A stretch of DNA of 64,000 nt, taken from positions 1,178,001-1,242,000 of the forward strand of contig NZ_CP073355.1 of the NCBI RefSeq assembly GCF_023525255.1. Reading direction: 5' to 3'. Below the pieces are notes generated by a model. It worked only from the letters and a program-made list of their open reading frames with translations, searched no databases and had not been told where the DNA came from. This DNA is from Thermospira aquatica. GTDB lineage: Bacteria > Spirochaetota > Brevinematia > Brevinematales > Thermospiraceae. Position 1 is the stretch's first letter; every line of letters starts with the position of its first letter. The position numbers and the translations under genes are program-made. Below are positions 45,050 to 63,135 of the stretch, one piece after another.

Positions 45050-45805
45050 GCTATGACGATATCACAGTGTGGTGGGGATTTTTTTGTTAGGGGGAGCTTG
45101 CTCTTCCTTTGTTGCAGTGGAAAGCAAAAGAAAGCTCACCAGCTCTTACCCTGTTGCAGTTAAAAACCACCAGTGTGATGGCTATTCCCTTATCGCAGTT
45201 AAAAAGACTGCCATGCTCTTCCCTTGTTACAGTGTGTCTGTCATGCGGGCTATTCCCTTATTGCAGTGTAAGAGGAAGAAAAGTTTTTTGCTCTTACCAT
45301 ATCACAGTGAGGGGGAAACTTCTAAGCTCTTCCCTTATTGCAGTATGGGCTATGAGAGAAAGGCTATTACCTTATCGCAGTAAGAAAACTTGCTATTACC
45401 TTGTTACAGTGAACGCGAAAAATTCCCCTGCTCTTCCTTTCTTGTAGGAGAAAAAGTTGCCGGTTGTCAAGGAAAGAAATGTCTCGAGACGAGGGGGATG
45501 GTCACCTCGATACGTTCCTGGGGAACTACTCGGCGACCGGGCTTCGGTACGCTTCGCTACTCAGCAACCGCTTCGATACGCTCCTTCGGAGCTACTCAGT
45601 GACAGAAAAACCCTCGGCTATTACCCTATCGCAGTAAAAAATTTTCCCCTGCTATTACCTTACCGCAGTGAAGGTGAAAACCAAAAACTCTTCCTTTATC
45701 ACAGAAAAAAGTTGCTATTACCTTTTTACAGGATGGAGGCAATTCCAGCTATTACCTTATCACAGTCTAAGGTTAAGGGATCATACACTGCAACAAGGTA
45801 AGAGC
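45050..45805. repeat. Left array of the 19-bp dispersed repeat (about 17 copies)
   Basis: Copies at 45050, 45100, 45142, 45181, 45215, 45249, 45290, 45326, 45363, 45392, 45430, 45617, 45651, 45687, 45714 and 45748 are on the plus strand; the last at 45787-45805 is on the minus strand. Consensus GCTMTTACCYTRTYRCAGT; copies at 45050, 45430, 45687 and 45714 are more degenerate. Spacing is irregular (29 to 50 bases, with the composite element between 45448 and 45617). This fills the 1-kb space before the IS1595-like gene. Confidence 0.92.
45404..45640. repeat. Composite dispersed repeat, copy 2
   Basis: Same blocks as 24488-24690: end of a 19-bp unit, GCGAAAAATTCCCC, a degenerate unit at 45430, AAGGAAAGAAATGTCTCGAGAC, GAGGGGG, three CTTCG(A/G)TACG units with CTACTC(A/G)GYGACC-like ends, and a closing 19-bp unit at 45617-45635. 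Copy 2 has one extra CTTCGATACGCTCCTTCGGAG unit, containing the palindrome GCTCCTTCGGAGC. Confidence 0.78.
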
Positions 45806-45933
45806 ATTTTTCTCAACCCCCAAAATCTCCCCATCGATCTTACTTTTAAAATATATAAAACATCTTTTTTAACAACTATAACAAAAAATTTTCGATATAT
45901 ATAGTATGAAAAAATTTCTCTAAGGAGAAAACC

Positions 45934-46734
45934 ATGGAAAAAGATTTTTTCACCCTCTCAGAAAACGAATCTTACCAAATCCTCGAAAAAGCCCTCTGGC
46001 CAGAAGGGGCGATTTGTCCCCACTGTAAGGCAAAAGCACGCCTTCTCTCGTGCCGGCTGGTGTATCAGTGCCCCAAGTGTGGAAGGCAATTTTCCTTAAA
46101 AAGCCAGTCCATCATGCGAAAAAGTCACCTCTCGCCAAAGGTTTGGCTTATCGCCATCTTTCTTGTCTCTCAAGATGGTGGCATAAACGCCGTGAAACTT
46201 TCCCAACTTCTTCATATTAGCTACAAGGCAAGCTGGCTTCTTCTTCAAAAGCTACGAAGCCTCATGCGGCTTACTAACCGTCACCACACAAAATCCATAC
46301 GAAAACTTGTCAAAACCTTTTTCTTTCTCTCGGGTATCAAACGCCGCCAGCGAAAAAATTTCTCCCCGATGCAGGTTGTCGAAATTGATGCAGATGATAT
46401 CCCTTCTAAACTTCACATTCACCTTGTGGATGATGTGAGTAGCGATTGGCTTTCAGACTTTTTTGGCAAGTTTTTCCGCCACACCTCGGTGGAAAAAAGA
46501 ACGCCGTGGCTTTCCCACATTAACGATGGGTTGAAAAACCTTCTTGAAGACGTCTATCACTATGGTTGTCGAAAGCACATGCAGCGCTATCTTGATGAAT
46601 TCTGTTTTCGGTTTAACATCGAGGGGGTTTCTTCCAGGCTTGAAGAGCTTTTAAGAAGGCTTGGCAAACGTCGTCAGCTCCTCCCGTGGAAAAAGCTTAT
46701 TGCTGAAGGGCTTATTCTCCCCATCCACGCGTAG
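45934..46734 (+). CDS. IS1595-like transposase-derived protein with shortened DDE domain
   Basis: 266 residues from ATG 45934 behind AAGGAG. The N-terminal zinc ribbon CPHC...CPKCGRQFSL and the SQDGGINAVKLSQLLHISYKASW helix region match IS1595/ISSpo3-type transposases; the C-terminal stretch KHMQRYLDEFCFRFN is the family's YLDEFxFRFNRR signature. Between them the catalytic core is short: VVEIDADD (first Asp) is only about 50 residues from the INDGLKNLL segment that aligns with the late SNLK region, where about 100-120 would be usual. So two strands of the RNase H fold seem to be lost. Flanked on both sides by the 19-bp repeat. Likely domesticated or non-autonomous. Confidence 0.72.
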   Translation: MEKDFFTLSENESYQILEKALWPEGAICPHCKAKARLLSCRLVYQCPKCGRQFSLKSQSIMRKSHLSPKVWLIAIFLVSQDGGINAVKLSQLLHISYKASWLLLQKLRSLMRLTNRHHTKSIRKLVKTFFFLSGIKRRQRKNFSPMQVVEIDADDIPSKLHIHLVDDVSSDWLSDFFGKFFRHTSVEKRTPWLSHINDGLKNLLEDVYHYGCRKHMQRYLDEFCFRFNIEGVSSRLEELLRRLGKRRQLLPWKKLIAEGLILPIHA

Positions 46735-46911
46735 GTTCTGGTTTTTTCTTTCTCACAACGTTTCCTGAGTCTGTCAAATGAGAATGGAAGGTTTTTGTTT
46801 TACTTTTTTCTTTCTGGATTTTTTTTATCCTTTTGAAAGAAAAAGAGAGGAGAAACTCGAAAATTCATGGTGAAAACGTTTTTTCGTGAGGGGAAAGAAG
46901 AAAAAACATGT

Positions 46912-47405
46912 GCTATTACCTTGTTGCAGTTTTTAGCACCTTATACCCCACGGTATGGTGACGGCTTTCCTGCGATAAGGTAAGAGCAATTTTGGCAAGT
47001 CTCGCGTTAAACGTTTAACTTGAGTTTCTCTTCCACACTCTTGAGTGAAAAGACATTTGATCTTACCTTCTTACAGCTAAAAACTGTTTTTTAGCTATTA
47101 CCCTGTTGCAGTAAAAAAACCGTCCACAAGCACCATAAAAACTGAAACAGGGTAAGAGCAGTGCCTCCTCCACCGTCTCCCGATGATACCTTTGGAGAAA
47201 AAAGAAAAGAACAAAACAAAAGCTCTTCCCTTATCACAGTTTTTTTCTTTCACTTTTTTGCTGTAACAGGGTAAGAGCAGTTCTCTCCCACTGCAACAAA
47301 GTAATAGCTAAACCCCAAATCCCCTTGTCCCACACTGCAACAAGGGAAGAGCATCCCCCACTGCAACAAGGGAAGAGCAATACAAAACTGCAACAAGGCA
47401 ACAGC
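46912..47405. repeat. Right array of the 19-bp dispersed repeat (about 11 copies)
   Basis: Plus copies at 46912, 47059 (degenerate), 47094 and 47222; minus copies at 46970, 47141, 47261, 47290, 47334, 47360 and 47387. 46912/46970, 47094/47141 and 47222/47261 face each other as hairpin pairs. The six outer right copies include five consecutive minus ones. Space 46735-46911 has no gene. Confidence 0.92.
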
Positions 47406-47642
47406 CGCCCCCCAAAAAAAAATTTATTTTCCATTTCACTTTTTAGTAAATTTTTGAGTATATTATACAGAGAGTACAGCGGAGTCTGTCCTCTCCAATG
47501 ATAAATTCTTTTACGTCACGGACGACACCTCTATCAAAAAGCGATTTCCTATCAAAAATTTCTCCTCCTATCAACAAAGAGCGGCGTGAAGCCGATATAC
47601 AAAAAAAGTCATACTGAAACAGAGTTACAGCAAGGAGGCGAT
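47406..47642. other. Upstream region of the giant-protein operon
   Basis: AT-rich near 47440-47470, with a possible -10 TATTAT at 47461 but no clear -35. A sequence ACTGAAACAGAGTTACAGC at 47613-47631 looks like a degenerate minus-strand copy of the 19-bp repeat and ends right before the AAGGAGG ribosome site of the giant gene. Confidence 0.4.
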
Positions 47643-50600
47643 ATGAAATCGCATCGCATTCTTTTCCCCCTGATTCTATGGCTGGGAGCTCTTCCCGGAT
47701 GGGCAGAGTATTTCTTCACGACGTTTAACGCAGCGGAGAATACTATCTTCCAGTACAATTTTTTGTACTCGCCCCAGATGGGAGTGCACAATGTGGGAAA
47801 CAACTACGCTACGGCTTTTAATACAAGTACCCTTAGGATTACCGGTCAAGGGAACACGGCAGCATACTATAATGAGCTTTACGGTTTTTTTGTCCGCAAA
47901 ACCAATGTAATATATACCGCAACCAAGGAAAGACCCATAGGTTTTGAATTGACGAGGACGTTTTGTCGACTGGACCCAGATAGAGGGATTCAGGCCGAGT
48001 CAGGACGTATGCGTGAAGCGTTTCACCTCATGTGGGTCCAGCACGATCCTGCGGTTGATACTGTTGGAGAATTTCTTTCCAATTTTGTCCATTTCTCCGA
48101 ACTTATGCGCCCTCAACTTGGGACCAATGACGGTTTTCCCAGTGAACCAAATATTCTTCCCCGGTCATTCTGGGCATCTGACCTCGCCTTTACGAGAAGC
48201 TCTGCATACTCCTTTTCAAATCTTACCCCTCCAAATGGGGGAGGAAGCCACGATCTCTCGGCCCTTTTCCTGTGGGGATATGATGATAATTATGGGTTGG
48301 GGATTTACGAAGGAAATACGGGTTCTATTAATTGGCCCTACTTTAATAACAACAATGTTGTACGTTTCCGTGTCACAATCGATGGAGAGTATGCCTACTT
48401 TTATGTGAATCCTAATCCTACCGGGGTAGGTAAGACAGACTATGATGGTACTCCTCGTGCAGCGGGATACTATTCCAACCAGTTCTATTTGGTGGGGAAG
48501 GTAGCAGTGAATTTCTCCAATAACCTTATCCCCATGTTTGGTGTTTCAGATAATCGTCCTGATGGAGAGATGCTTTCTTACTATGTGGATGACATGACGA
48601 TCCGCACCATTGCGGCAAGCAACGTCGCTGAGATTTCGCCTGTCATGACCAGAGCAGGGACAACGAATGCCCTGCGGATAGCCATCCATCCCTGGTTTTC
48701 GACCGTAAACGAAGCGGGAGTGCAGGAGGTGTATGTTGATTTACCGCAGAGCTATCTTAGCTATACCAACTGGACAGCCTTTACCAATCAGGTGGGAGTG
48801 TTCTGGGCACAAACCAATGGGCAGACCATCTATCGTACTTTTAATCGACAATGGGCAGATGTCAATCCTGCAGGAGGGACGGTAGCGATCTCTGTAAAAG
48901 AGAATGGCAAACGACTCAAGATCCGCTTTAATGCCGCAGCAACTCCCGATGTTTTCCATCCCAATTATAGTGGTTTTGGGGGAAGTATTGCTACAACCCA
49001 CCAGTACATGATCTATATCGTGGTGAGTAACTTTTCCACTCCTGCAGGAGCCGACATAGCGGGAAAGACGATAGAGGTGTATGTAAATAACGAAAAATAC
49101 CAGGATACCACCTGGGCAAATAATGCGACCACGGGACCGGCAAAGGCATATGCAGGCAATGTAACAGCCTTTTCAGGCTTTATGGCAGACAACAACACCC
49201 TCTCCTTTTCCACAGCCAACGATCCCGTTGGTGTCGCTGCGATTCGACCCAACTTTACCTATGAGGGAGAGTCCAAGACATGGTTTGTCGATGTAGCCGC
49301 CAAAGATGCAAGCGAATCCGCAGACAACAATGCTGATATTGTGCAAGTGGAGATTTATCTTCCACCGGGCTTCGAGGCTCAACCAGGCAGCTTCTCAAGC
49401 GAAAGGCTGACCAATACCTCGAGTATTGCGTATGATACGGCGCTGCGTCGTATCTCCGTGTATTATACCAACGAGAACAAATACCTCATTGCAGGTTCCG
49501 GGATTGATACCATCCGTTTTAACAATATTTCTACCACCAATCTTGATACCATCCCTCCTGCAGGAACCAACCAGATCTCCAACTCGATTCTCGTGGTAAG
49601 CTATGCCGCCCTTCCGGGGACAAAGCCCGTTACCAATGTAACGAGTCTCTCTTACCCCCTGCAGAGTTTTCTCATCCGTAAAAAACCCCCGAAAATGCAG
49701 GGAGCGATGCTTCCCACCGAGGTAAGTAACACCCTGGTAAGTAACCAGTATGCCTATCTCATCCAGAACAAAGCAGAAAACACAGGAAACAATATCCGTC
49801 GTCTTTTGGTTCGTCTTGACAGAATATTTACGAATGTGGTGGGAGTGGTAGCAGATAGACCGGCAGTGATTACCTTTTCCTACAATATTACAAACAACAA
49901 TATTACCAATACGGAGGGATATTGGTGGATTCTCGTGGACTATGCAGCCGCTTCTACCAACGTTGTCAAGGGGGAGAGTGCGACAGTGACGTTTTGGGCG
50001 TATGATACAGCTCCCTCGTTGGCAAATGATCTCTACGCTACCAATATAAGCTATGCCGACAACTTCAATGGCGATGGTTGGGTAGCGGCTACCGAGGAAC
50101 CTACCACAGGATGGGTTACCAAATTCTATACTCCACCGGCAAATGTGCGTTCGTATATTGTAGAGCCCCTCAACGAAGATGGCATCCTGGATGCGAGTTA
50201 TAACCACCATCGATATACAGACAGAGAAGATAGCTTCCTTGTCCGCCTGCGTATCAAAAACTGGGGAGAACCAGAGAATAGTATCTACAAGGTTCGCGTG
50301 ACCCTCCCTGATGGGATAACCAACATTGATAGCGTTTCTTCATTACGGATAGGACCTTCGCAGATGAGGACCTATACAACCAATGGTGGTCAGAACGTGG
50401 TCGCTGAATTCTTCTACACCAATAGCCCCATTCCCCCCACCGAAGTGGATGACCTGCTTCTCTGGATTCGGGATGATATTCATGCTCCCGTGACGAAGAC
50501 CATCCAGGTTGAGGCAGCCAATACCACCAACTATGCCCTCGGTGGGCTTGAGGGGGCAGACAATCTCGATCTTCGCTTTATTTATCCGAAGCCAGCAGCT

Positions 50601-53600
50601 GAAGGGTATGTCATTGTTCCTGATGGTTTCATTGATGCGGCAACCAACGAGGCCACTATTTATTACGCTATCTCCAATACAGGCCTCCACGAGAATCAGA
50701 TCAAAGAGCTCTATCTCTGGATTAATACCAACTATATCACCAATGTGCAGTTCCTCTCTTCCTCTCTGGGAGGCACCTACACAGGATTTGTTCCGGATAC
50801 CCCACCGTATTATCGTTTCCAGGTACAGTACTACACCACCTTTTACGGGGCATCCAACGAACTCCTTACCTTCAAAGTGTTTGATAACGTGGAAAACCGT
50901 GCTGAATTTCCGATTTATTTCTCTGTTTCCAATCTCCGAATGTGGAGTAACCAGCTTCCTGCACCCCCCACTCAAACGCAGAACGTCAAAATGATTCCAC
51001 CCCCTGTTTTCTATGCTTACGGGATAGAGCGTACCGTTGCCTTTAAGGCTGTAAGTCTAGGGGAAACCAATACACTGACCGTGAGACTCCGTGTTACCAA
51101 CCTCGGATGGGGGAGCAATAAGCTTCACAAACTGCGTCTCTGGATTCCGTTTGGGCTCACCAATCAACTGCAACAGGTCAGTAACGCCCTTCTCGAGCGT
51201 ACCAATGAGCCCGCAGGACCGGTGAAACTCGTGGCTTCTAACCTTATTGAGATCAGTTACATTGATGGTGGTCAGGAACTTCTGGCAGGAAATGCCGATG
51301 ACACCTATCTTACCTTTGGCGTGTTTACCAATCAGTCGATAACAGGACACTTTGTCTTGGCGGTAGCAAACAACTCCCTGGATGAGGGAGGTCAGTATCA
51401 GTGGACCAATTACTGGACAAATGTGGCTGTTTTAAGTGCTACCAATATCTTTACGCTGGTGGATCCTGCGAGATTCTATATCCAGCCAACCGTCATTGCC
51501 ACGCCGGCAACCTCAACGATTCTTTCCAATCGTATTGAGAATGGGGTGGAGGCTTTCGGACGAAAAATCCGTCGTGTTGAACTCACCTATGATGATAATT
51601 TCATTACAAACGTTGAGGTGCTGAATGCAGGTTCAGGAGGTTTGGCAACAGTGATTGGTGGTACCAATGTTCGCGTGGATTATACCCCTGCTCTGGATCC
51701 CAATGCAGGACGGTGGATCGTTGTACGAGTCTACGATAGGTGGCTCGAGGGCGATACCAATATGCTGGTGACAGCAAAGGTATGGTACGAGGCTGATCCA
51801 CTTGGGGGAGGAGAACCTGCCCTCATCAAGGAAGGCTACACCAACCTTGTGGATTTTAAGAACCCAGCAGCATCTGCGCAGGGGTACGTAACTCCATCGA
51901 TAGTGTGGCAGGATTTTTTGGCAACAAACTACACCCTTTTTATCACCAATACCGGGGATACAGGGAACGATATCAAGTGGGTCAGGATTGTGCCTCCTTC
52001 CTTTATTACAGGGATGTCTGCGGGAGTTTCTACAAAAGGGGCGGTAGTGTTCGTCTATCCTTCGGTGATAGATGTCTATTATACGAATGTAAGCTTTGCC
52101 CCGGGCGAGGTGGATACTATTTCCTGGCAGGCTTCTGACAATATTAGTAACACAGAGGTTTCGGAAGTGTGGGACCTCTATGTCAACAATACTTTGCAGG
52201 ATACCCTCTTCCAGAGTGTTGGAGTTTTGCCAGGATATAGCCAGATTCTTACTATTCGACGTCCTGCGTATCAGGTAAACTACTATGTAGAGTTTACCAA
52301 TAGCATCAATACCTCTCAGCGCAACCGGATGTATGCCACAGAGGAAACAAACAGTGTTAAGATCTTTATCAACAATACTGGTTCCACCGGGAATGATATC
52401 GTTGCTGTACGGATTCCCATTCCATCGATTTATGATCCTACGACAGCACCGGACAACCTTTTTATTACCAACGATATGACGGTAACAAGTCTCAAGGGAA
52501 CGGTTGCCCTCTCCAACGATAGCGTATGGGTGAACTACAGTAGCAATCCGATTCTCCCGATGGATGGGGATGAGGTGCTGATTACCCTGCGAGACAGAAT
52601 AGATCACTATGAGACCAATCTCACCTGGACACTCCAGGCAAACCTCAATACGACAGCAGACCAGTACAAAGATGCTTCTGTCCAGGTAGGTCAGTCAGCA
52701 ACAGCTTTCTATGTGATGCCTTCGCCTCAGGCGATGGCGACCCTTTTGCCATCAGAGATCTATCTTGAACGTCGAAGCTTCTGGCTTAGCCTTGTGGTGA
52801 GCAATACAGGACGGGGAACAAGCGATATCGATCAGGTTCAGATTACCCTTCCATCAGTGTTGCAGAGCGACTTTGATATCACAAAAGTTTCCAATACGGT
52901 AGCCTCCTCTACCAACTATAGTAGTGGAGTACTCACACTTTCCTATAGTCCGCCGATTGTACCTGGAGCTAAAGATACCATCTACCTCCTGGTAACCAAT
53001 ACAGCCTCCTCGGTCAACGACGATGTGACACTCACGGTAACCGTACGCAACTTTGTGAAAACAGGACCGGCCTCGGGAAACACCGTACTCTCCCTTTCAA
53101 CGCTTCCTACCTATTATGTGTACGTCAACCAATCCGAGGCAAATCGCACGGTAGATACCACCACGATGACGAACATCTTCTCGATCAATATTGACAACTC
53201 GGTGAATACGTCTCTCCGTGTCGGAAGGATCCGTGTTGCCTTCCCGACGAATTGGTTTACCAATGGAGATGCCTACGGGAGTGAGCGCTACATTACCAAC
53301 ACGGCTCACATCACAGGGCATCCAACCAACATCATCGCAGAATACGCCCTTGACGGACGGAAGATCGTAAGTGGCGATTACGATGTACTGAATTTCAGAC
53401 TCTGGGATAATCTCAGGATTGGGAGCTTTACAAACTATGTAGAGGTATATGTTGACGATGGACTCGCGATAGAAGAGAGCGAACGCTGGATCAAGCTTCC
53501 TGTGGCAGGTGGCAAGACCAACCAGTTCATCTTTGAGATGCCGCCGACAGAGACGGCTCAGTCCATGACTACGACAACCATCTACGTAGATACCGAAGTA

Positions 53601-55442
53601 ACCAATACCACGATACGACTCACCAACCGGGCAACAACCGACAATCCTGTCTCCATGGCCCGGATTGTCCTGCCGATGGGGATTACCAACATTGACAGTC
53701 TCTTTAGCACCAAAGGAACTGCAACCTATGAGGCAACCACGCATCGTATTGTGGTGGATTATCGTCCAGCTTTCCTGGAAACCAACCAGATGGATGAGAT
53801 AACCTTCACTTTCTCCAATCTCTACCGTGTTCCCACCAATGTAGGCTTCTATGTCGATACAGCAAACCTTACCAACGAGAGTGAGATGCTCTTCACGGTA
53901 GCACCTGGAATAAATGGCTCAGTTTCCCTCCTCAAGATTAACTATCCCCTTGTTGCAGTCGAGGGAGGCTTCTACGGTGACAATCGCATCTATCTCATTG
54001 ATACCAATGCCACCCTTATCTACAGGGTATTGAACCGAACCTTTGAGAGTGTGGTGACGCAGGTGGTTATCACGTTTGAGAAGGATATCACGAACTACTT
54101 CTCAGAGATAAGCCTGGCCAATACGATAGCCACAGTGACGCGTCCGGATACCAATACCAACCAGTTTATCCTGAGTTATACAACAGCAGATGGAATCAGG
54201 CAGGGATACTACGAGGATCTGGTGTTTACGCTTCGTTACAACCTCTCCAACACGGATGTAATCCCCATCACGACCCGTGTCTGGCTTGAAAAGACAGGAC
54301 CCAACGGAACCAACGTCAACGCCCTCAAGGTGCTTGCCTCAAGCGCTGAGGTGAACCTCCTCTTCATCACCAATGCGAACTGGGGTGTGGTACGGGGAAG
54401 TGTCTTCCCAACCAACAGAACCGTCAATGTCAAGATCTATGCGCCTGAGAGCTCGACTCCATCGTTGGATATTAATGGACAGGTGCTCTCCACCTCCAGT
54501 CGTGTGCCAGAGGGAACCTATGTGATCCGCAAGATCCCGGGCGGTACGTATGATATTGAGTTCTCTGCGCCCTACTACCGCAGTCAGCGCTACAGGACAA
54601 ACATCCAGCCCAATGTGATCACCGAGATTCCTCAGATCCCGATGCGCAATGCTCCACTGTTGGGTGGTGAGGATGAAGCGCAGGTGGTAGAATGTTACGA
54701 AGAGACCAATAGCTTTATTGTCTTCCCTGGCGGTTCAGTGGGTAAGGAATTCTCGGTAGATATCACACGGGTACCCCTGACAGCCGAGCAAAAGCGTAAC
54801 CTTACGGAGAACAAGGCGGTAAAAGCCCCATCTACGACTGAGAACATGTATGGGTACCGTTTTGCCCTCAACACGAGAGACGATAAGCCCATGGATGGAG
54901 CTATTGTAAAGCGTGATGCTATTCTGTATCTTGCCTACGATCCAGTGGATATAGCTTCTCGCGGCTGGAGTGAACAGGATCTTGCGATCTACTACTGGGA
55001 TGACAATGGTCTCAATCCTCGTTGGGTGAGGATCGGAGGCGAGGTAGATACGACGGCGAAGCGAGTGGTAGCTCGTGTAAGCTATGTGCATAGCATTTAC
55101 GGTGTCTTTAGCCGTGCTGGTGAAGAGAGGCCCGGTATAATCACGGCTGTGACGCTTCGACCAAAGGTATTTACCCCCAGCAGGTCGGGGGACGGCTACT
55201 ACGGCTCGATACGGGTAACGATAGAGTTTCGAGAGGCGGTAAAGCGCTACGAGGTCAAGATCTTTGATCTCAAGGGCAACCTCATCCGGCGGTTTATCCG
55301 TGAGGATGGTCCGTATACGCAGGGAGAGATAGCCTGGGATGGCAAAGACACGGAAGGCTACGATGTGAAAAATGGTGTGTACGTGTACAAGATATATGCC
55401 GGCGGTGAGACCTACAGTGGTACGCTGGTGATTGCACGGTAG
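47643..55442 (+). CDS. Giant secreted Asn/Thr-rich repeat protein, copy 1
   Basis: About 2599 residues from ATG 47643, set by AAGGAGG and the signal peptide (MKSHRILFPLILWLGALPGWA); a GTG frame to 47586 lacks support. Residues about 20-345 form a beta-sandwich/lectin-like region ending DDMTIRTIAASNVAEISP, shared with the next gene. Then come many diverged Ig-like repeats of 100-180 residues, recognisable by NTG-x2-(G)ND-I-x2-V and a later V-x-Y...G-x-x-D-x-I. The C-terminus has a carboxypeptidase-regulatory-like module (GVVRGSVFP), a ZU5-like part (LAIYYWDDNG...WVRIGGEVDT) and an FlgD/T9SS-like end (VKIFDLKGNLIRR, WDGKDTEGYDVKNGVYVYKI, GTLVIAR). Surface or fibre protein. Confidence 0.82.
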   Translation: MKSHRILFPLILWLGALPGWAEYFFTTFNAAENTIFQYNFLYSPQMGVHNVGNNYATAFNTSTLRITGQGNTAAYYNELYGFFVRKTNVIYTATKERPIGFELTRTFCRLDPDRGIQAESGRMREAFHLMWVQHDPAVDTVGEFLSNFVHFSELMRPQLGTNDGFPSEPNILPRSFWASDLAFTRSSAYSFSNLTPPNGGGSHDLSALFLWGYDDNYGLGIYEGNTGSINWPYFNNNNVVRFRVTIDGEYAYFYVNPNPTGVGKTDYDGTPRAAGYYSNQFYLVGKVAVNFSNNLIPMFGVSDNRPDGEMLSYYVDDMTIRTIAASNVAEISPVMTRAGTTNALRIAIHPWFSTVNEAGVQEVYVDLPQSYLSYTNWTAFTNQVGVFWAQTNGQTIYRTFNRQWADVNPAGGTVAISVKENGKRLKIRFNAAATPDVFHPNYSGFGGSIATTHQYMIYIVVSNFSTPAGADIAGKTIEVYVNNEKYQDTTWANNATTGPAKAYAGNVTAFSGFMADNNTLSFSTANDPVGVAAIRPNFTYEGESKTWFVDVAAKDASESADNNADIVQVEIYLPPGFEAQPGSFSSERLTNTSSIAYDTALRRISVYYTNENKYLIAGSGIDTIRFNNISTTNLDTIPPAGTNQISNSILVVSYAALPGTKPVTNVTSLSYPLQSFLIRKKPPKMQGAMLPTEVSNTLVSNQYAYLIQNKAENTGNNIRRLLVRLDRIFTNVVGVVADRPAVITFSYNITNNNITNTEGYWWILVDYAAASTNVVKGESATVTFWAYDTAPSLANDLYATNISYADNFNGDGWVAATEEPTTGWVTKFYTPPANVRSYIVEPLNEDGILDASYNHHRYTDREDSFLVRLRIKNWGEPENSIYKVRVTLPDGITNIDSVSSLRIGPSQMRTYTTNGGQNVVAEFFYTNSPIPPTEVDDLLLWIRDDIHAPVTKTIQVEAANTTNYALGGLEGADNLDLRFIYPKPAAEGYVIVPDGFIDAATNEATIYYAISNTGLHENQIKELYLWINTNYITNVQFLSSSLGGTYTGFVPDTPPYYRFQVQYYTTFYGASNELLTFKVFDNVENRAEFPIYFSVSNLRMWSNQLPAPPTQTQNVKMIPPPVFYAYGIERTVAFKAVSLGETNTLTVRLRVTNLGWGSNKLHKLRLWIPFGLTNQLQQVSNALLERTNEPAGPVKLVASNLIEISYIDGGQELLAGNADDTYLTFGVFTNQSITGHFVLAVANNSLDEGGQYQWTNYWTNVAVLSATNIFTLVDPARFYIQPTVIATPATSTILSNRIENGVEAFGRKIRRVELTYDDNFITNVEVLNAGSGGLATVIGGTNVRVDYTPALDPNAGRWIVVRVYDRWLEGDTNMLVTAKVWYEADPLGGGEPALIKEGYTNLVDFKNPAASAQGYVTPSIVWQDFLATNYTLFITNTGDTGNDIKWVRIVPPSFITGMSAGVSTKGAVVFVYPSVIDVYYTNVSFAPGEVDTISWQASDNISNTEVSEVWDLYVNNTLQDTLFQSVGVLPGYSQILTIRRPAYQVNYYVEFTNSINTSQRNRMYATEETNSVKIFINNTGSTGNDIVAVRIPIPSIYDPTTAPDNLFITNDMTVTSLKGTVALSNDSVWVNYSSNPILPMDGDEVLITLRDRIDHYETNLTWTLQANLNTTADQYKDASVQVGQSATAFYVMPSPQAMATLLPSEIYLERRSFWLSLVVSNTGRGTSDIDQVQITLPSVLQSDFDITKVSNTVASSTNYSSGVLTLSYSPPIVPGAKDTIYLLVTNTASSVNDDVTLTVTVRNFVKTGPASGNTVLSLSTLPTYYVYVNQSEANRTVDTTTMTNIFSINIDNSVNTSLRVGRIRVAFPTNWFTNGDAYGSERYITNTAHITGHPTNIIAEYALDGRKIVSGDYDVLNFRLWDNLRIGSFTNYVEVYVDDGLAIEESERWIKLPVAGGKTNQFIFEMPPTETAQSMTTTTIYVDTEVTNTTIRLTNRATTDNPVSMARIVLPMGITNIDSLFSTKGTATYEATTHRIVVDYRPAFLETNQMDEITFTFSNLYRVPTNVGFYVDTANLTNESEMLFTVAPGINGSVSLLKINYPLVAVEGGFYGDNRIYLIDTNATLIYRVLNRTFESVVTQVVITFEKDITNYFSEISLANTIATVTRPDTNTNQFILSYTTADGIRQGYYEDLVFTLRYNLSNTDVIPITTRVWLEKTGPNGTNVNALKVLASSAEVNLLFITNANWGVVRGSVFPTNRTVNVKIYAPESSTPSLDINGQVLSTSSRVPEGTYVIRKIPGGTYDIEFSAPYYRSQRYRTNIQPNVITEIPQIPMRNAPLLGGEDEAQVVECYEETNSFIVFPGGSVGKEFSVDITRVPLTAEQKRNLTENKAVKAPSTTENMYGYRFALNTRDDKPMDGAIVKRDAILYLAYDPVDIASRGWSEQDLAIYYWDDNGLNPRWVRIGGEVDTTAKRVVARVSYVHSIYGVFSRAGEERPGIITAVTLRPKVFTPSRSGDGYYGSIRVTIEFREAVKRYEVKIFDLKGNLIRRFIREDGPYTQGEIAWDGKDTEGYDVKNGVYVYKIYAGGETYSGTLVIAR

Positions 55443-55452
55443 GAGGTGGAGT

Positions 55453-58400
55453 ATGAAGGCGATGAGATACATCCTTTTCCTGGCTTTGGCAGTGAGTATG
55501 TGGGGACGGTCTCTCTACTACTACCAGGGATTCTCAGACCCGGCTATGGATACCAATAGCTACAACAGCGGTGGCTGGCAGTGGAATTTCCCCATGAGTA
55601 GAGATATGATGGTGTGGGATGTGCAGGATCTGTTTGGGGCTACAGATAGGGATTTCCCAGCTACGGTGAGGCGCTACAATGGGCTCCTTGAGATCTATGG
55701 GAGACCCAACAAGAGTTCGCTTGCTTGGAATAACTGGTATATTGGTGATGGGGCGAAGTTTAGTCCTGCTGGTGCTGGGCTGGGGACGATCAATGCCACG
55801 CCTGAGGAGCCCTTTGGGTTTACGGTGATTCGCTATACCAATAGCATGGATCCGCGGGGGGATGCGGGCGAGGCATATGGCTATTCTTCAACTCCCAACC
55901 AGAAATCATTTGTCAACGTCTGGATAGCAAGTGATAACGGGGCATCCCAGCCCTATGATCGGTGGAACGATTTTGCCTACTTTTTTGAGAAGCAACACTG
56001 GAACCAGACAAGTACCTACGGCTTTTTTGAGACGCGGGAATATGTGGTGGGATTTCCCACGACGGATATAGACGGTGTTTCGGTAGGTACCGCTGCAACT
56101 ATTACCGCTACTTTTCAAAGAAACTACGATGATAATAACCAGAATTACCAAAACACACTTTCTAGACATTTTACAGGCGGGGATGGTTACTTTAATCCTG
56201 TGAATGCGCCCCTGGGGATTCGTGTGACCCATGATGGGCGCAAGGTGAGTTTCTACGTTAACTACAATCCTCTGGGGACGACGCCCAATCTGAGCAATGC
56301 GTGGGTTAAGGTAGGGGAAAAAGAGGTTCCCTGGAGTACCAACCTTGTGGCGTTTCTCTCGACGGAGAGTCCGTTTTTCCGTGAGGGAGAGGTAGAGACC
56401 CAGTTTGATCATTTTCTTATCCGGACGGTGGCAAGTAATCTCACAGCGAGAATCTCTCCTGTTCGCGTGATGACCAACCGTTCTCTTCAGTTCAAGCTTA
56501 CCGTTCATGTGGAGACCGCACCAGAGGATAGTGGTGTCCAGGAACTGTATATCAAGAAGCCAGCAGGCTACGGAGCATGGAACACCGCAAGTGTGGCGCT
56601 AACCAACTCTTCGGGAGGAGTGCCGATTCGAGGCTTTATCAACAATGGAGCGTCTGCTCCGACAAGCGGAAGATTTCAGGTAAAGGTGTTGGCTTCAGGT
56701 GATCTTTATATCCGTTTCTGGGCCCAGAGTCAGTCTCAGAATGATATTATCCGCAGTGATGATATAGATGTGTACTTTACCCTGACGACACCCTCTACCC
56801 CCAATCCGGCAGGAGACAATTTTGAGGTTTATGTGGATAGTGTGAAGCACACCGATACCGCGCAGGATGTTCTTTTTGATACGGTGAATGGACTCCCTTA
56901 CGCCACAACAGGACGCCAAAAAGCCCGTGAGGCTTTTGCTGATAGTTTACGGGTACGGGTGTACAGTGCCCCTCAGGCATATGCCAAGGTAGAGTATAGC
57001 CCTTCTCCGATTATTATCGGGACCGAAGAGAGCAGCTTCACCGTGAAGCTCTCCACCGAAGGGCTAACAACGATTCCGCCGATCTCGAGTGCGCGTATTT
57101 ATATTCCTTCAGGATTTACGGTATCAAACAACACCACAACGCTGACAAATATTGTGTCGACCGTGTTGGGGGCATCAGCCAGTGCCAACAATATCCGGGT
57201 GACAAACATCAGTGGCAGTAACTTTATCTGGATCTACTATACCAACCTGGTGACCCTGGGACTCCCTCCTGCAAGTGGATTTGACAAGATCAACTTCAAG
57301 GTATATGGGACGCCTTTGTTTACAGGAATTCCTTACTCTAACTATCTGTGGCAGGTTGAAGTCAACAGTGATGAGGTTGTGAGCGGTGTTTCGTGGGCCA
57401 AGGCGGGTACCAACATCGTTTATTCGAGTCAGCTTGTACGTGTAGCCTCTTCCAATGCCCAGGTAGCGGCAGCCATCAGTCCTGCAGAGGTGGCTATCAA
57501 TGCCGCCTATAGTTCCAATGCGATTCGTTATAGCTATACCATCAAAAACGATGGTCCAACAGGCAATAACGTCCATCGGATCTTCATCCAGCTACCGGGG
57601 AACTACTCTGACAATTCCGTTTCCAATATCACCGTATCCACACCGGGAGCAACGGCAGCCTACTCCAATGGAGCAATATGGGTAACCTATGGGACGCCTC
57701 TCTCTTCCGGAGCTACCTCAACGATTCAGTTCTGGGCTGCCTTTACCAATACCAATGTCACGGGAGCATCAGAGACGGCAGAGTTTATTCTCTACGCCGA
57801 CAACAACAACTCAGCAGGCTACACCCTCCAGTACGAGAATGCCCCCCTCACCTGGAGGGTTTCTATCCTTCCGCCGAGAGTGAAGGGAGAACATGCTATC
57901 AACGTTGTAGAAGGAAGTGTCACCAATGCCCCTGAAATCACGACAGACAAGGTCTCTAGCAGACTTATCCACTGGATCTACAACACCTCTCCCAAGGGAG
58001 TGATGATACAAAGTATTGATATCCTCTATCCCCAGACACTTCTCACCAATATCGTGCCAATATCAAGCAGTCTGACAACCAATACCACTCTCTCCGTGAT
58101 AGAAGAGGGAAACTATTTCGTCGTAAGGCTTGCTTACACGAATTTCCTCTCGTTGTACGATGATGTAGCCTCTTCAAAAGACCAGGTGGTAGTCGATGTT
58201 TTCGACAGTATTGAGCTTCCTACCAATTTCATCATCCCTGTCCGCGTGTACAAGACGGATGTTCCTACGTCGGATTTTTACTCTTCTAACGATGCAACGA
58301 TAGGTATCATGTTCTCGGGCTCCAATCGATTGTATGTAAATTATCCTCTTCCCGAGATTTCATGGGGTGTGAAGCCAGGGGATCTTGATTCTACCACAGA

Positions 58401-61400
58401 GACGAACCGCATGACCTGGGTGATCAGTAACAGAGGTCTTTCAGGCAATAAAATCTATCAGGCCCGTTTAACCATTCCGACCAATGTCACCACCAATATT
58501 GTTAACACCATCATAACGAATAGTGCAGGGACCGTAGTGGGAGCTCTTCTCTATACACCTACAACGGGAGTTATCCAGGTAAACTTCTCTTCCCCTCTTG
58601 TCGGTGGAGAGACAGCGTATGCCCACTTTGACATGGTAGATCACGTAGACAACATGGATCTTCTCAATCAGCTTCTCTCATGTCAGGTAACAAACGATAG
58701 AGGGTGGTTTACTGTTTCCAACATCGTGGGGGATTACTATTCCTCGCTTAACTTCCGTCTTCCTAAACCCTCTGGTGGTGGCTGGGTGACACCCAATATC
58801 TTCTTTGTCAATACCAATGGACCATCGGTAGTGACCCAGCAAGTGGTGGTGTTTGTCACCAACACAGGAGGCCAGAACGATCGTTTCAACAGTGTGGAGA
58901 TCAAGCTTCCACTGCCGTGGACCAATACTGTCGCATGGGCCTCAAGTACCCTTCTGGGTCTTACCTCTACCAACAGTGGATTCTTTACCATTACACCAAC
59001 CAATGTGAGGATTACGTATCCTGTGGGAAGTCATGAGTTCAAGTCGGGAATGGGCGATTATGTCACGTTAGAGCTTCGTATCTCCAACCGCACAACCCTG
59101 CCCGTAAGCGGCACATGGCAGATTCTGGCTAACAATGGGTTTGTGGACTATGGTTTTAGCCCTCCCAAAGACTATTTTGAGATTACCAATGTGGGTACTG
59201 AGGCTCAGCGACAGGCCTATGGAACGGCTATGCTCGTGGCTTCACTCGATACGACGAATGTGACTCGTACCGTTACAAATGGTCAATTCAGATTCTCTGT
59301 GACCAATGGTATTGCGGGAGGCATGGCTGTAAAATGGATGAAGATAGAGATCCCATCCCTCTATGTCGTTTTGACCAACACGATCACGGTAGATGGTTAT
59401 AGTCCTCTCAAGACGATCTCCAATAACGCCATCTGGCTCGATTTTTCAGCAAGCGAGCTTGTAGCGGGAGCAAACTTTACCGTAGACTTCCAGTGGAAGA
59501 AAGGAATCCAGCAGACACTCACCAATCAATTCTGGCGGGTGACGGTTGCCTATTCAAGTAACTTTACAGAATATGAGATGGACAGCTATGGGGCACAGGA
59601 TCAGAATATCATCAATGTGCCACTTACTTTCTATGCCGCGGTTTCTCCCAACAAGGTAAACAAAGACCTTGCATACATGCAGTATACGGTGACGATCACG
59701 AATACAAGTGAAGAAGGGAATAACATCACGCTTCTCAAGATTGTACCACCATCAACCAATGCTAATCTCAAAGAGATACTCACCAATATCACGGGTGTGA
59801 ATTCCTCTCGTATTGGAAACAACGCTGTTTACTCCAATGATGGGGTGATCTATGTGGATTATCTCTCCCAGGGAACCTCAATTAAGCGTGGAGAAGTGGA
59901 CACGATTGTCTTTACGGCGTATGATAGGGAGAATACAGCGTACTTTAGTGGGACAAGGGCTCTCTCGTGGCAGATTCTTGCAGCAAACGCAAGCTGGGAT
60001 CTTCCAACCAATCAGGGACAGCCTAACCTTGCACTGTGGACAAATGATCTCTCCCTCGAGTTTGTTGTCCCTCCTTACAAGACGGTTTACGCTATTGCAC
60101 CGACCAATCTTAACACGGTTGATGTGACCAATACCCTCGAGTTTGCTCTCCAGAACACAAGTGAAAGTTTTGCAGATGTGATTGAGAGACTTAGGATTTC
60201 GATACCATGGCCCTTCCGCACCAATACCATTGCCTTTGTAAGTACCAAAGCCTCAGGGTATACTATTACCAATGAAAATGGTACCAACTATCTTGAGATA
60301 AGCTATCCGGTAGGGCGCATGGCACCGGGATCGAATGACATTATAACCCTCAAGTGGTTAGATGATTTTGAGCATGGTGAAACCAATACAACCCTTGCCC
60401 TGAGTGTCCGTTATACGACATCGGGTTCTACCTATGTAGAGGCTCTTCCACAGATCGGGGCAACGAATGTTGTCAACTTTAAGATGCCTGTTCCTGAGAT
60501 GAGAGCAGGGCTTGTGGTAAATGAGATCTATACGACACTCAGAGAAGGAACCCTCACCTTCGTGCTTACCAACAAGGGATACGGTCAAAATACGGTGCAG
60601 AGAATGCGTCTCGAGGTTCCTGAAGGATTTACCAACATTCTGGATGTGAGTAAGATTCGCTTTGTTTCACCTGTTGATATTACCAACACCAATGTGATAC
60701 TCCCCAATATCTACGAATTTTATCCAACAGGACTTCTCACCAATCAGGTAATCCGCGTCGAGATTGATGTAACCAACACGCTGACCAACACCACCTATGA
60801 TGTGCCATGGGTATGGACGATGGACAATGGCTATGTGACGACGAATATCACGATCCTTTCCCATGTGATTGATCCAGGTTCGGCAGAGTTGATAGAAAGA
60901 ACAGTTGCCTCTGACAAAAAGAGTCACACCATAACCCTCAAAGTGTACAATAATACGCCTGGTTTGCTTCCACTCTTGCGGGTGAAAGTAGAGCCTAATA
61001 ACAGTTTCTACACCAATATTAACAGTATAACGAGCTCTGCTGGGACAATTTCCAACGTCACAGAGAACAGTTTCTGGATCGTGTATACCACACCTCTTGC
61101 CAAAGGATCGGTCGATACGGTGACAATGACCCTGTATGACAATACCAACCAGCTTATAACCAATGATCTTGAGTGGAAGGTATGGGGAGACAACGGAACA
61201 GAACCGGCGATTCTGAGAGAAAAATCAGCCGGTGCTTTGAAGCAGAACACCACTATTTCTAAACCTGATGTCACAAATATCTGGCATACCTCGTGGTACA
61301 TTATTCCAGGTAATGATCGCATAGCGGACTTCCGTCTGACCGTATCCAATAGAAGTGCAGATGAGGTAGTGGTGATCACTAACATCCTTACCATTCCTGC

Positions 61401-63102
61401 CGAGCTCACCAATATCACACCGGCTGGTATTGCTACAACGCATCCTCGTGCAACCCTGACCAGACTCAATGCTACCACGATTCAGATAGTGTATAGTGCT
61501 CCGTATTTTGTTCCAGGAGAATCTGATACGATTAGTTTCCAGTTTACCAATAGCGTGGGTGTTCCTAAACTTGTGGATGTTTCTCTGAGAGCGTATAACA
61601 AGGGTTCTCAGGTCTTTGAGGAGACAAGGCAAATTGATTTTACCCAACCACCACAACCTACCGAGGGGTATATCAAGAACCGCCAAACCATTTACAGCAT
61701 AGACAACTATGCTGTTGTTACCTATGTTGTACGAAATGGACTCTATGATAGAGATATCAAGGAGGTTATGATTGCCTCGAGTAATGAAGTACTCCTGGTA
61801 ACGAACATTCGTTCGGTGAAACTGGGGAGAAATCTCTCGTTCACAACGAACAGTACGAATATTGTCATTAGTTACGGAGATGATGGCATTCTCCACAGTG
61901 ATACCGATGAACTTCGAATTGAGTTGATATACACGAACAACGCCAACTGGACAAATGATATGCCTGCCAAGGTACGTTATGATGGTTCGATAAACTTTGA
62001 GGATGCTATTGTGCCGACAGGAGAACAGAACATTCTGCCAGTTTTGTTAGCAGACTTTGGTCGTGTGAGAGGTGTTGTGTTGCCCGGATTTGCAAACCCG
62101 AGTATAAAACTCTACAAACCAGGCACTTCTGAAGTAGCCACGAATAAATTTGGAGAACTCCTGGTAACAGGTGCAGCTGGAACAGGAGCTTATACGGTAG
62201 ACTTTGCTATGCCAGGAATCTATGATGTTGGACTAAGCGGGAGAAACTACCGTGAGGTTCGTGTCAGAAATATAGAGGTTTTTGCCAATGTAGTCACCAA
62301 CATCGGGACGAACAAGATGGAGCATGATCTTTTGAGTCCGGATGCGACTGGAGAACAGACGGTGGTATGTCTGGATGACATGGAGACGGCGATCACGTTC
62401 CCATCCGGGACGATAGGGGAGAACTTCCGACTGGATATCTGGATTACGAACATGACACCTGAGCAGCAGGAAGCAACGGGACAGAAACCCATTCAGGCGC
62501 CACTTGACAAAGCGAACGCCAAGGCGTGGATATTTGTGATTCGGAATGCGAAGGGAAAAGAGCAGCCCGAGCAGTGGTTGAGAAACGATGCGACGATTAC
62601 GATAGCGTATGATCCGGCGTATATCAGTGCGCAGGGTTGGAGTGAGGAGAAGCTCTCGATTTACTACTGGCGAGCCACGACGAAGCAGTGGGTAAAGCTT
62701 GGAGGCGTAGTTGATCGCAATGCTCGTACGGTAAAAGTCAAGGTGAGTTATCTCCACAAATACTACACGGTGATGGCTGACATAGCGGAGAAGGTGAAGG
62801 AAGGCTTCATCAGTGTACGTACGGATCCGAAGGTATTTACGCCGCGCCGTGGTGGACGTGAGGTTCAGAACATGAAGCTTTCGATAGTGTTTGAAAAACC
62901 TGTTGAGAAGTATGTGGTGAAGATCTATGATCTGAAGGGGAATCTGGTGTACAAAGTCGAGAGGAGTGGTGAGTTTGCCAATGGAGAGGTTTATTGGGAT
63001 GGTAAGGATCTCTCCGGATATGATGTTGCTGGTGGGGTGTATGTGTACAAGATTGAGGCAGGAGGGTATGTGTACAGTGGGACGATTGTGATAGCGAGAT
63101 AA
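55453..63102 (+). CDS. Giant secreted Asn/Thr-rich repeat protein, copy 2
   Basis: About 2549 residues from ATG 55453 (AGGAGGT at 55441-55447), 10 bases after the first giant gene. Signal peptide to about MWGRS. The architecture is the same: N-terminal region ending FDHFLIRTVASNLTARISP, many Ig-like repeats, ARVRGVVLP-type module, SIYYWRATTKQWVKLGGVVD and the C-terminal VKIYDLKGNLVYKV...WDGKDLSGYDVAGGVYVYKI...GTIVIAR. The ends are well conserved between the two copies while the centre has diverged, so this looks like an old tandem duplication. Ends at a strong terminator. Confidence 0.82.
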   Translation: MKAMRYILFLALAVSMWGRSLYYYQGFSDPAMDTNSYNSGGWQWNFPMSRDMMVWDVQDLFGATDRDFPATVRRYNGLLEIYGRPNKSSLAWNNWYIGDGAKFSPAGAGLGTINATPEEPFGFTVIRYTNSMDPRGDAGEAYGYSSTPNQKSFVNVWIASDNGASQPYDRWNDFAYFFEKQHWNQTSTYGFFETREYVVGFPTTDIDGVSVGTAATITATFQRNYDDNNQNYQNTLSRHFTGGDGYFNPVNAPLGIRVTHDGRKVSFYVNYNPLGTTPNLSNAWVKVGEKEVPWSTNLVAFLSTESPFFREGEVETQFDHFLIRTVASNLTARISPVRVMTNRSLQFKLTVHVETAPEDSGVQELYIKKPAGYGAWNTASVALTNSSGGVPIRGFINNGASAPTSGRFQVKVLASGDLYIRFWAQSQSQNDIIRSDDIDVYFTLTTPSTPNPAGDNFEVYVDSVKHTDTAQDVLFDTVNGLPYATTGRQKAREAFADSLRVRVYSAPQAYAKVEYSPSPIIIGTEESSFTVKLSTEGLTTIPPISSARIYIPSGFTVSNNTTTLTNIVSTVLGASASANNIRVTNISGSNFIWIYYTNLVTLGLPPASGFDKINFKVYGTPLFTGIPYSNYLWQVEVNSDEVVSGVSWAKAGTNIVYSSQLVRVASSNAQVAAAISPAEVAINAAYSSNAIRYSYTIKNDGPTGNNVHRIFIQLPGNYSDNSVSNITVSTPGATAAYSNGAIWVTYGTPLSSGATSTIQFWAAFTNTNVTGASETAEFILYADNNNSAGYTLQYENAPLTWRVSILPPRVKGEHAINVVEGSVTNAPEITTDKVSSRLIHWIYNTSPKGVMIQSIDILYPQTLLTNIVPISSSLTTNTTLSVIEEGNYFVVRLAYTNFLSLYDDVASSKDQVVVDVFDSIELPTNFIIPVRVYKTDVPTSDFYSSNDATIGIMFSGSNRLYVNYPLPEISWGVKPGDLDSTTETNRMTWVISNRGLSGNKIYQARLTIPTNVTTNIVNTIITNSAGTVVGALLYTPTTGVIQVNFSSPLVGGETAYAHFDMVDHVDNMDLLNQLLSCQVTNDRGWFTVSNIVGDYYSSLNFRLPKPSGGGWVTPNIFFVNTNGPSVVTQQVVVFVTNTGGQNDRFNSVEIKLPLPWTNTVAWASSTLLGLTSTNSGFFTITPTNVRITYPVGSHEFKSGMGDYVTLELRISNRTTLPVSGTWQILANNGFVDYGFSPPKDYFEITNVGTEAQRQAYGTAMLVASLDTTNVTRTVTNGQFRFSVTNGIAGGMAVKWMKIEIPSLYVVLTNTITVDGYSPLKTISNNAIWLDFSASELVAGANFTVDFQWKKGIQQTLTNQFWRVTVAYSSNFTEYEMDSYGAQDQNIINVPLTFYAAVSPNKVNKDLAYMQYTVTITNTSEEGNNITLLKIVPPSTNANLKEILTNITGVNSSRIGNNAVYSNDGVIYVDYLSQGTSIKRGEVDTIVFTAYDRENTAYFSGTRALSWQILAANASWDLPTNQGQPNLALWTNDLSLEFVVPPYKTVYAIAPTNLNTVDVTNTLEFALQNTSESFADVIERLRISIPWPFRTNTIAFVSTKASGYTITNENGTNYLEISYPVGRMAPGSNDIITLKWLDDFEHGETNTTLALSVRYTTSGSTYVEALPQIGATNVVNFKMPVPEMRAGLVVNEIYTTLREGTLTFVLTNKGYGQNTVQRMRLEVPEGFTNILDVSKIRFVSPVDITNTNVILPNIYEFYPTGLLTNQVIRVEIDVTNTLTNTTYDVPWVWTMDNGYVTTNITILSHVIDPGSAELIERTVASDKKSHTITLKVYNNTPGLLPLLRVKVEPNNSFYTNINSITSSAGTISNVTENSFWIVYTTPLAKGSVDTVTMTLYDNTNQLITNDLEWKVWGDNGTEPAILREKSAGALKQNTTISKPDVTNIWHTSWYIIPGNDRIADFRLTVSNRSADEVVVITNILTIPAELTNITPAGIATTHPRATLTRLNATTIQIVYSAPYFVPGESDTISFQFTNSVGVPKLVDVSLRAYNKGSQVFEETRQIDFTQPPQPTEGYIKNRQTIYSIDNYAVVTYVVRNGLYDRDIKEVMIASSNEVLLVTNIRSVKLGRNLSFTTNSTNIVISYGDDGILHSDTDELRIELIYTNNANWTNDMPAKVRYDGSINFEDAIVPTGEQNILPVLLADFGRVRGVVLPGFANPSIKLYKPGTSEVATNKFGELLVTGAAGTGAYTVDFAMPGIYDVGLSGRNYREVRVRNIEVFANVVTNIGTNKMEHDLLSPDATGEQTVVCLDDMETAITFPSGTIGENFRLDIWITNMTPEQQEATGQKPIQAPLDKANAKAWIFVIRNAKGKEQPEQWLRNDATITIAYDPAYISAQGWSEEKLSIYYWRATTKQWVKLGGVVDRNARTVKVKVSYLHKYYTVMADIAEKVKEGFISVRTDPKVFTPRRGGREVQNMKLSIVFEKPVEKYVVKIYDLKGNLVYKVERSGEFANGEVYWDGKDLSGYDVAGGVYVYKIEAGGYVYSGTIVIAR

Positions 63103-63108
63103 AGAAAA

Positions 63109-63135
63109 AGCCCGGCTTTCCGCCGGGCTTTTTTT
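63109..63135. terminator. Intrinsic terminator of the giant-protein operon
   Basis: Stem AGCCCGGC / GCCGGGCT, loop TTTCC, then a T run; A tract before it may also serve the convergent ssb. Confidence 0.9.

Follow-up and report, generated by a model that had tools for sequence, protein, structure and literature searches.

The closest described counterpart of the locus reported here is SprB of Flavobacterium johnsoniae, a giant type B cargo of the type IX secretion system (T9SS), which adjoins and depends on the barrel SprF according to the available part of PMC9143113. The same excerpt describes PorV and the PorP-like proteins as FadL-family barrels, and type B cargo genes are given there, as in the accessible sections of PMC12618676, as frequently linked to PorP/SprF shuttle genes; in the latter source, one orphan shuttle is able to serve several cargos. 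As far as the accessible texts go, T9SS was found in Bacteroidetes only (PMC4793230), rarely if ever outside Bacteroidetes (PMC5837995), and its genes were absent outside the FCB phyla in a paper of 2024 (PMC11285876). In the open-licence literature, whose scope leaves out most subscription journals and preprints, we found no report of T9SS parts in Spirochaetota. Thermospira and Longinema are cultured Brevinematales, as stated in the available part of PMC12236494.

On the complete chromosome of Thermospira aquatica (one contig, 2,515,453 bases), two adjacent giant genes, A and B, were analysed in a 64-kb window, which is the whole stretch of DNA under analysis (bases 1178001-1242000). We consider, at a rough probability of 0.68, that A and B encode giant surface fibres, inherited together as a pair and anchored to the outer membrane, which are adhesive and exported by a T9SS-like route. 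The pair is out of the ordinary. It resembles SprB/SprF in the giant repetitive surface protein, the C-terminal export domain, the adjacent gene for a putative FadL-family barrel and the SprA-like translocon, but differs in that two co-inherited cargos with a lectin-like tip apparently share one barrel, in Spirochaetota, and in that the export domain falls between the type A, type B and FlgD_ig models and the motor part GldM was not found here. Compared with the T9SS as a whole (SprA/Sov, PorV, PorU, GldKLMN/PorKLMN), the likeness lies in SprA-like and PorV/PorP-like proteins and in cargo with T9SS-type C-terminal domains, whereas the hosts of A and B lie outside the FCB phyla to which the accessible text of PMC11285876 confines the system.

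A preliminary description of this DNA had placed two giant genes with a shared domain order at 47643-63102. Both open frames were found there (2599 and 2549 aa, Table 1), and the proteins aligned end to end with 28.3% identity over 2393 aligned positions. The Shine-Dalgarno-like stretch of B abuts the stop codon of A, and immediately past B there is a hairpin that carries a T run; therefore, A and B are most likely one two-gene transcript. The scan places this hairpin on the minus strand, and on the plus strand the T run was counted within the stem. Codon usage of both genes was average (index 0.62-0.63, against a mean of 0.627 for the 23 other genes of the window), with ribosomal and elongation-factor genes at 0.62-0.75. 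Promoter-like sites were not enriched near A and B (25 against 23.1 in shuffles), and the Rfam scan of the window revealed five tRNAs and nothing else. Between the IleRS gene and gene A (window 45093-47420), there is an interspersed repeat of about 20-25 bp, GCTATTACCTTGTTGCAG, with its inverse. An IS1595-like transposase (45934-46734) divides the copies: those on its left mostly share one orientation, whereas both orientations occur on its right. Elsewhere in the window, a Lamin Tail Domain (PF00932) is present in the 616-aa product of 30822-32672.

Table 1. Features of the A-B locus in window coordinates, with the basis of each assignment.
Feature	Position	Strand	Basis or remark
Gene A (A1), 2599 aa	47643..55442	+	ATG 47643 after Shine-Dalgarno-like AAGGAGGCGAT; TAG stop 55440-55442
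A: putative signal peptide, about 20 residues	47643..47702	+	N-terminus and cleavage site judged by eye; no lipobox Cys
A: L-type-lectin / ConA-like jelly-roll, residues 20-324	47700..48614	+	Predicted model
A: two further beta-sandwich domains, residues 325-681	48615..49685	+	Integrin alpha leg-like in the predicted model
A: 11 diverged repeats of 132-156 aa, residues 682-2244	49686..54374	+	Repeat profile
A: CarboxypepD_reg / transthyretin-like domain, about residues 2245-2336	54375..54650	+	Predicted model; teneurin 8fia
A: further beta domain, about residues 2337-2496	54651..55130	+	Confident model; barely covered by structural matches
A: predicted C-terminal T9SS-type sorting domain, about residues 2497-2599	55131..55439	+	PorZ/PorU ends
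A: C-terminal tract homogenised with A2	54640..55442	+	803 nt, 90.9%
Gene B (B1), 2549 aa	55453..63102	+	ATG 55453; colinear with A
B: 12 repeats, residues 507-2177	56971..61983	+	Repeat profile
B: C-terminal tract homogenised with B2	62277..63102	+	826 nt, 90.9%
B: predicted C-terminal sorting domain	62797..63099	+	FlgD_ig 32.9 bits, cut-off 27
Hairpin with flanking A/T runs, strong G+C, directly 3' of B	63105..63133	.	Likely end of the A-B transcript

The long centre of diverged repeats that had been proposed, with the suggestion to build an HMM of it, was recovered by a profile made from the 11 clear units of A, which share a mean pairwise identity of 19%. Through this profile, we found 12 units each in A1, B1 and the second-copy proteins A2 and B2 (described below), mostly at E 1e-14 to 1e-30 and weakest on the first unit of A1 and A2 (3e-3 to 4e-3), with zero units at E<0.01 in shuffled versions of the proteins. 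The noted richness in Asn and Thr was likewise evident: gene A encodes 10.3% T and 8.2% N, and the TN dipeptide occurs 66 and 68 times in A and B, against approximately 22 expected by shuffling. The NTGxxGNDI-type motif had been taken as a marker of the repeats, but its strict form, NxGx(1-3)[GN]Nx[IVL], has just two occurrences per protein (in shuffles, mean 0.1 and maximum 2), so that it marks some of the repeats and not all. No characterised family had been recognised for the whole layout, and this held in the searches of Pfam and NCBIfam, neither of which gave a full-length match: the last approximately 65 residues were the only part over a Pfam cut-off (FlgD_ig), and the whole A and B proteins exceeded no NCBIfam cut-off.

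Two AlphaFold2 models of A were made from alignments of 19 and 20 rows, covering residues 20-830 (mean pLDDT 83.8, with weak loops) and 1965-2599 (mean pLDDT 89.2, taking in the last two A repeats). In the Foldseek rankings for both models, beta proteins of many domains (ciliary apparatus, integrins) prevailed, and these rankings were never used alone. On the predicted model, the N-terminal domain of A is an L-type-lectin-like jelly-roll by fold, matching best with ERGIC-53 (8jp7, Z 12.5, rmsd 3.8, 193 aligned) and also resembling legume lectins, the galectin-like 1oq1 and two enzymes, kappa-carrageenase 1dyp and laminarinase 4dfs. The two following domains, together with the first A repeat, match an integrin calf-like region (4nen, Z 11.6, rmsd 3.5, 254 aligned across two domains); the second of them reached just E 3e-3 with the repeat profile. 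The predicted stalk and tip thus resemble integrin alpha legs (calf-1, calf-2) and ERGIC-53-type lectins as a similarity of fold at identities of about 5-12%, from which we claim neither common descent nor ligand. Streptococcal antigen I/II, UafA and BcpA were also among the structural matches (Z 9-11) as stacked beta-sandwich surface adhesins; these are Gram-positive cell-wall proteins, and unlike A and B they lack a T9SS-type domain. Considering the predicted tip, we may reasonably infer that A and B are adhesive.

The preliminary description had offered a sheath, a surface layer or an adhesive fibre, among which the fibre is favoured by the lectin-like tip and beta-sandwich stalk, and nothing was found for a sheath or a layer as such. 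Proteins that build a regular surface layer or sheath, joined laterally through beta domains, would be giant, secreted and beta-only, as A and B are, two paralogues always found together, and surface-layer proteins appeared among the structural matches (7ptp Z 9.9, 8qox Z 9.4). However, a surface layer would be expected to be expressed very highly, while the codon usage is average, and single fibres agree better with a lectin tip and with a partner for export or shuttling; we regard this arrangement as unlikely. The jelly-roll also ties lectins with the GH16 enzymes 1dyp (Z 11.6) and 4dfs (Z 11.4), by which A and B might be surface polysaccharide degraders with a laminarinase/carrageenase domain at the N-terminus. 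The GH16 signature is ExDx(x)E. This was missing from the N-terminal region in all nine proteins checked, and that region lacked any Pfam glycoside hydrolase match, so that GH16 identity of the A tip was rejected on the absent motif and a degrading role appears very improbable.

The end of the proteins gave a divided signal by sequence, split among FlgD_ig, T9SS type A and T9SS type B domains. TIGR04183 scored 23.6 bits on the tail of A scanned alone (cut-off 23) and 19.7 in the whole protein, and the tail of B matched the CHU_C type IX signal at E 7e-4, below the cut-off. Among 20 tail rows at E<=0.1, TIGR04183 was matched in 12, TIGR04131 in six, CHU_C in 13 and PF13620 in 15. A PDB sequence search with the tail profile returned FlgD, cellulosomal scaffoldin and PorU at E 0.003-0.006. 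By structure, the top two among 978 chains aligned to the C-terminal domain of A were PorZ (5m11, Z 11.3, rmsd 2.6, 91 aligned) and PorU (6za2, Z 11.3, rmsd 2.7, 93 aligned), each at the C-terminal end of those proteins. Judged by the predicted model, A carries a T9SS-type C-terminal Ig-like sorting domain. Upstream of it, the CarboxypepD_reg-like domain matches teneurin 8fia (Z 11.2, rmsd 1.8, 82 aligned); the poor coverage of residues 2337-2496 by structural matches does not show a new fold. The Thermospira aquatica genome encodes two other FlgD_ig proteins (890 and 1355 aa).

Spirochaetes have periplasmic flagella, and FlgD_ig is the sole Pfam model above its cut-off in A and B. They could accordingly be read as periplasmic scaffolds whose FlgD-like Ig domain has no role in export. 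We hold this to be a slight chance, considering the linkage to a PorV/PorP-like barrel, the co-distribution with a SprA-like protein, the PorZ and PorU ends as best structural matches, and extended stalks of a dozen domains that would hardly fit the periplasm.

Through neighbourhood comparison, we found a third gene, C, of about 400-450 aa directly behind B (a 614-codon frame in one relative). C is a predicted FadL-type barrel nearest to the PorV and PorP/SprF models, with all matches under the cut-offs (E down to 8.9e-12 with NF033709 PorV_fam and down to 3.9e-10 with TIGR03519 PorP/SprF). The C proteins have a signal-peptide-like start and a conserved NPA motif, and a PDB search with their profile gave only weak matches to TodX/TbuX/CymD (FadL-family TodX at E 0.04). 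C is adjacent to A/B in 16 of the 20 genomes holding both: it directly follows the end of a gene of the A/B family in 13 (G003, G004, G006, G009, G011, G013, G014, G015, G017, G037, G041, G048, G051) and directly precedes A in three (G033, G061, G100). It lies apart in four, namely Thermospira aquatica (G000), its same-genus relatives G001 and G002, and G019; C is therefore unlinked in the window's own genus. By contig coordinates and identity, G001 and G002 correspond to SKW221 and Ch60, the nearest of the 'Brevinematales bacterium' assemblies found with A. In Thermospira aquatica it is single-copy, at about 589.7-591.0 kb, and this single unlinked C fits the orphan-shuttle precedent in the available part of PMC12618676. 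The 614-codon C (L037:25278-27119) has a TN-rich C-terminal extension, with 20 TN among its final 184 residues, a composition reminiscent of A and B. In three genomes (G029, G041, G051), a first look gave dozens of candidates for A/B-like tails and C-like barrels, which suggests many cargo-shuttle pairs.

The NCBIfam SprA model TIGR04189 gave piecewise matches, for the most part within frames of about 1,900 codons, in 28 of 60 relatives; none exceeded the 200-bit cut-off, and 14 control genomes had no match. In Thermospira aquatica, the SprA-like protein has 1886 aa and an aromatic last residue (about 968.8-974.5 kb). Nine SprA-like proteins align, seven of them matched by TIGR04189 (best 2.9e-37), and their profile found SprA 6h3j/6h3i in the PDB at E 2e-30, colinear in several stretches, with PDB sequences other than SprA absent at E<=1. 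On this sequence evidence, a SprA/Sov-type translocon is encoded in these genomes. The genomes with A/B appear to differ from described T9SS hosts in GldM, PorU and SprA_N. GldM (TIGR03517) gave faint matches in two of the 60 genomes (E about 0.004-0.008), both without A/B, and no positive control rang. Among the matches listed for PorU (NF033707), only the C-terminal part was covered (from about 905 on) and no positive control passed the cut-off; the exception among them was G046, a genome without A/B. Pfam SprA_N (PF14349) matched none of the 60 genomes, the control genomes being likewise silent, which is hence no evidence of absence. Membership in the T9SS is supported for the pore and the cargo domain and is less firm for shuttle, motor and sortase. 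Upstream of the SprA-like gene, a 932-aa protein (L076:4256-7054, about 964.3-967.1 kb) has the same placement in the sister species Ch60 (62%); judged by eye, its C-terminal part resembles an Omp85-type barrel.

In a sample of 159 Spirochaetota genomes, A/B (E<=1e-25) were present in 24, C (E<=1e-12) in 21 and the SprA-like protein (E<=1e-5, some partial or faint) in 69. C occurred in 20 of the 24 A/B genomes against one of 135 others (Fisher p 2e-20), and the SprA-like protein in 23 of 24 against 46 of 135 (Fisher p 6e-9), with kinship ignored in both tests and significance thus overstated. All 15 A/B genomes at least 90% complete contained both partners; the four without C were 80-86% complete. 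The co-distribution is partly shared ancestry. Independent of the Fisher tests are the linkage of C and the sister family f4 of the same order, in which A/B, C and the SprA-like protein are all missing in four of four genomes. The 46 genomes with a SprA-like protein but without A/B indicate that other cargo must exist. These genomes, and G048 (76% complete), which has A/B and C but no SprA-like match, leave a marginal chance that A and B are surface fibres sent by another route and the SprA-like protein carries other cargo, against the 23 of 24 A/B genomes and the family f4 lacking all three.

The A-B order was kept in 12 loci of 11 genomes where both genes are visible (window, L005/L006, L010, L028, L031, L033, L035, L036, L037, L041, L042/L043, L051). 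The exceptions were G019, with a lone, non-tandem relative of 4187 aa (L047/L048, contig 27), and L044, with the second gene scattered across several frames. In a tree of 32 A/B sequences (a quick method with long branches, rooted for drawing only), the A sequences and the B sequences separate into two clades. G033 and G048 belong to other families of the phylum; their first genes group with A and their second genes with B, and the genes of G019 and G051 form their own group near the root. From this tree, the A/B duplication is older than the class and probably older than several families.

A second pair, A2-B2, lies in the same gene order on the minus strand of the Thermospira aquatica chromosome (about 346.2-361.6 kb). 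A1 and A2 share 53% identity and B1 and B2 58%, but the final approximately 200-250 residues are 94-98% identical. With Ch60 as the yardstick, nucleotide identity over B residues 2301-2549 was 88-94% between the copies inside each species against 77-82% between orthologues, the opposite of residues 801-2200 (copies 40-61%, orthologues 56-80%). The A tail was 95% identical within the species against 77-81% to the sole A tail sequenced in Ch60. The tails were therefore homogenised in each species, most simply by gene conversion, and shorter conversion-like tracts lie nearer the N-termini of A and B. Probably, one shared tail type is kept by both pairs because C is single-copy, while the stalks diverge. 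The mosaic of tracts would be compatible with phase or antigenic variation, but a switching mechanism was not seen and we do not claim this reading. Three loci in metagenome assemblies have A or B broken by a change of frame or a TAG stop (L028 9914-17802, L035 9719-17442, L031 14872-22611), and contigs of the genus stop in several cases at or close to the homogenised tails, probably from assembly trouble.

The surface location and dedicated exporter foreseen in the preliminary description are supported by the signal-peptide-like N-termini, the T9SS-type C-terminal domain, the linked PorV/PorP-like barrel and the SprA-like translocon, and in spirochaetes a T9SS-like route probably serves to export and anchor the two giant proteins. 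Counting against it, the T9SS matches of C and the SprA-like protein are below curated cut-offs, and the tail resembles the FlgD Ig domain about equally by sequence. In the fibre reading, Sec would deliver A and B to the periplasm and the SprA-like pore would carry them across the outer membrane; the C-terminal domain would be passed to the barrel C, which would retain them at the cell surface, where the lectin tips may bind glycans of neighbours, biofilm or particles. By analogy, the whole arrangement would operate like SprB with SprF of Flavobacterium johnsoniae.

More tentatively, and at somewhat less than an even chance, many Spirochaetota may own a reduced type-IX-like system with a SprA-like pore and PorV/PorP-like shuttles but no GldLM, a main cargo of which in Brevinematia would be the lectin-tipped fibre pair. 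Such a system lacking the GldLM motor would imply a different power source. The presence of a SprA relative in 69 of the 159 Spirochaetota genomes sampled, partly tied to export-domain cargo and shuttle-like barrels, would bring the T9SS into a further phylum and offer a test of whether the pore functions without its known motor. The homogenised tails next to diverging stalks would be a natural record of the cargo part constrained by its exporter. If the proposal is true, the T9SS would predate the Bacteroidota/FCB group or be more mobile than that group, and the lectin-tipped giant fibres may give Brevinematia cells a grip for adhesion or crawling.
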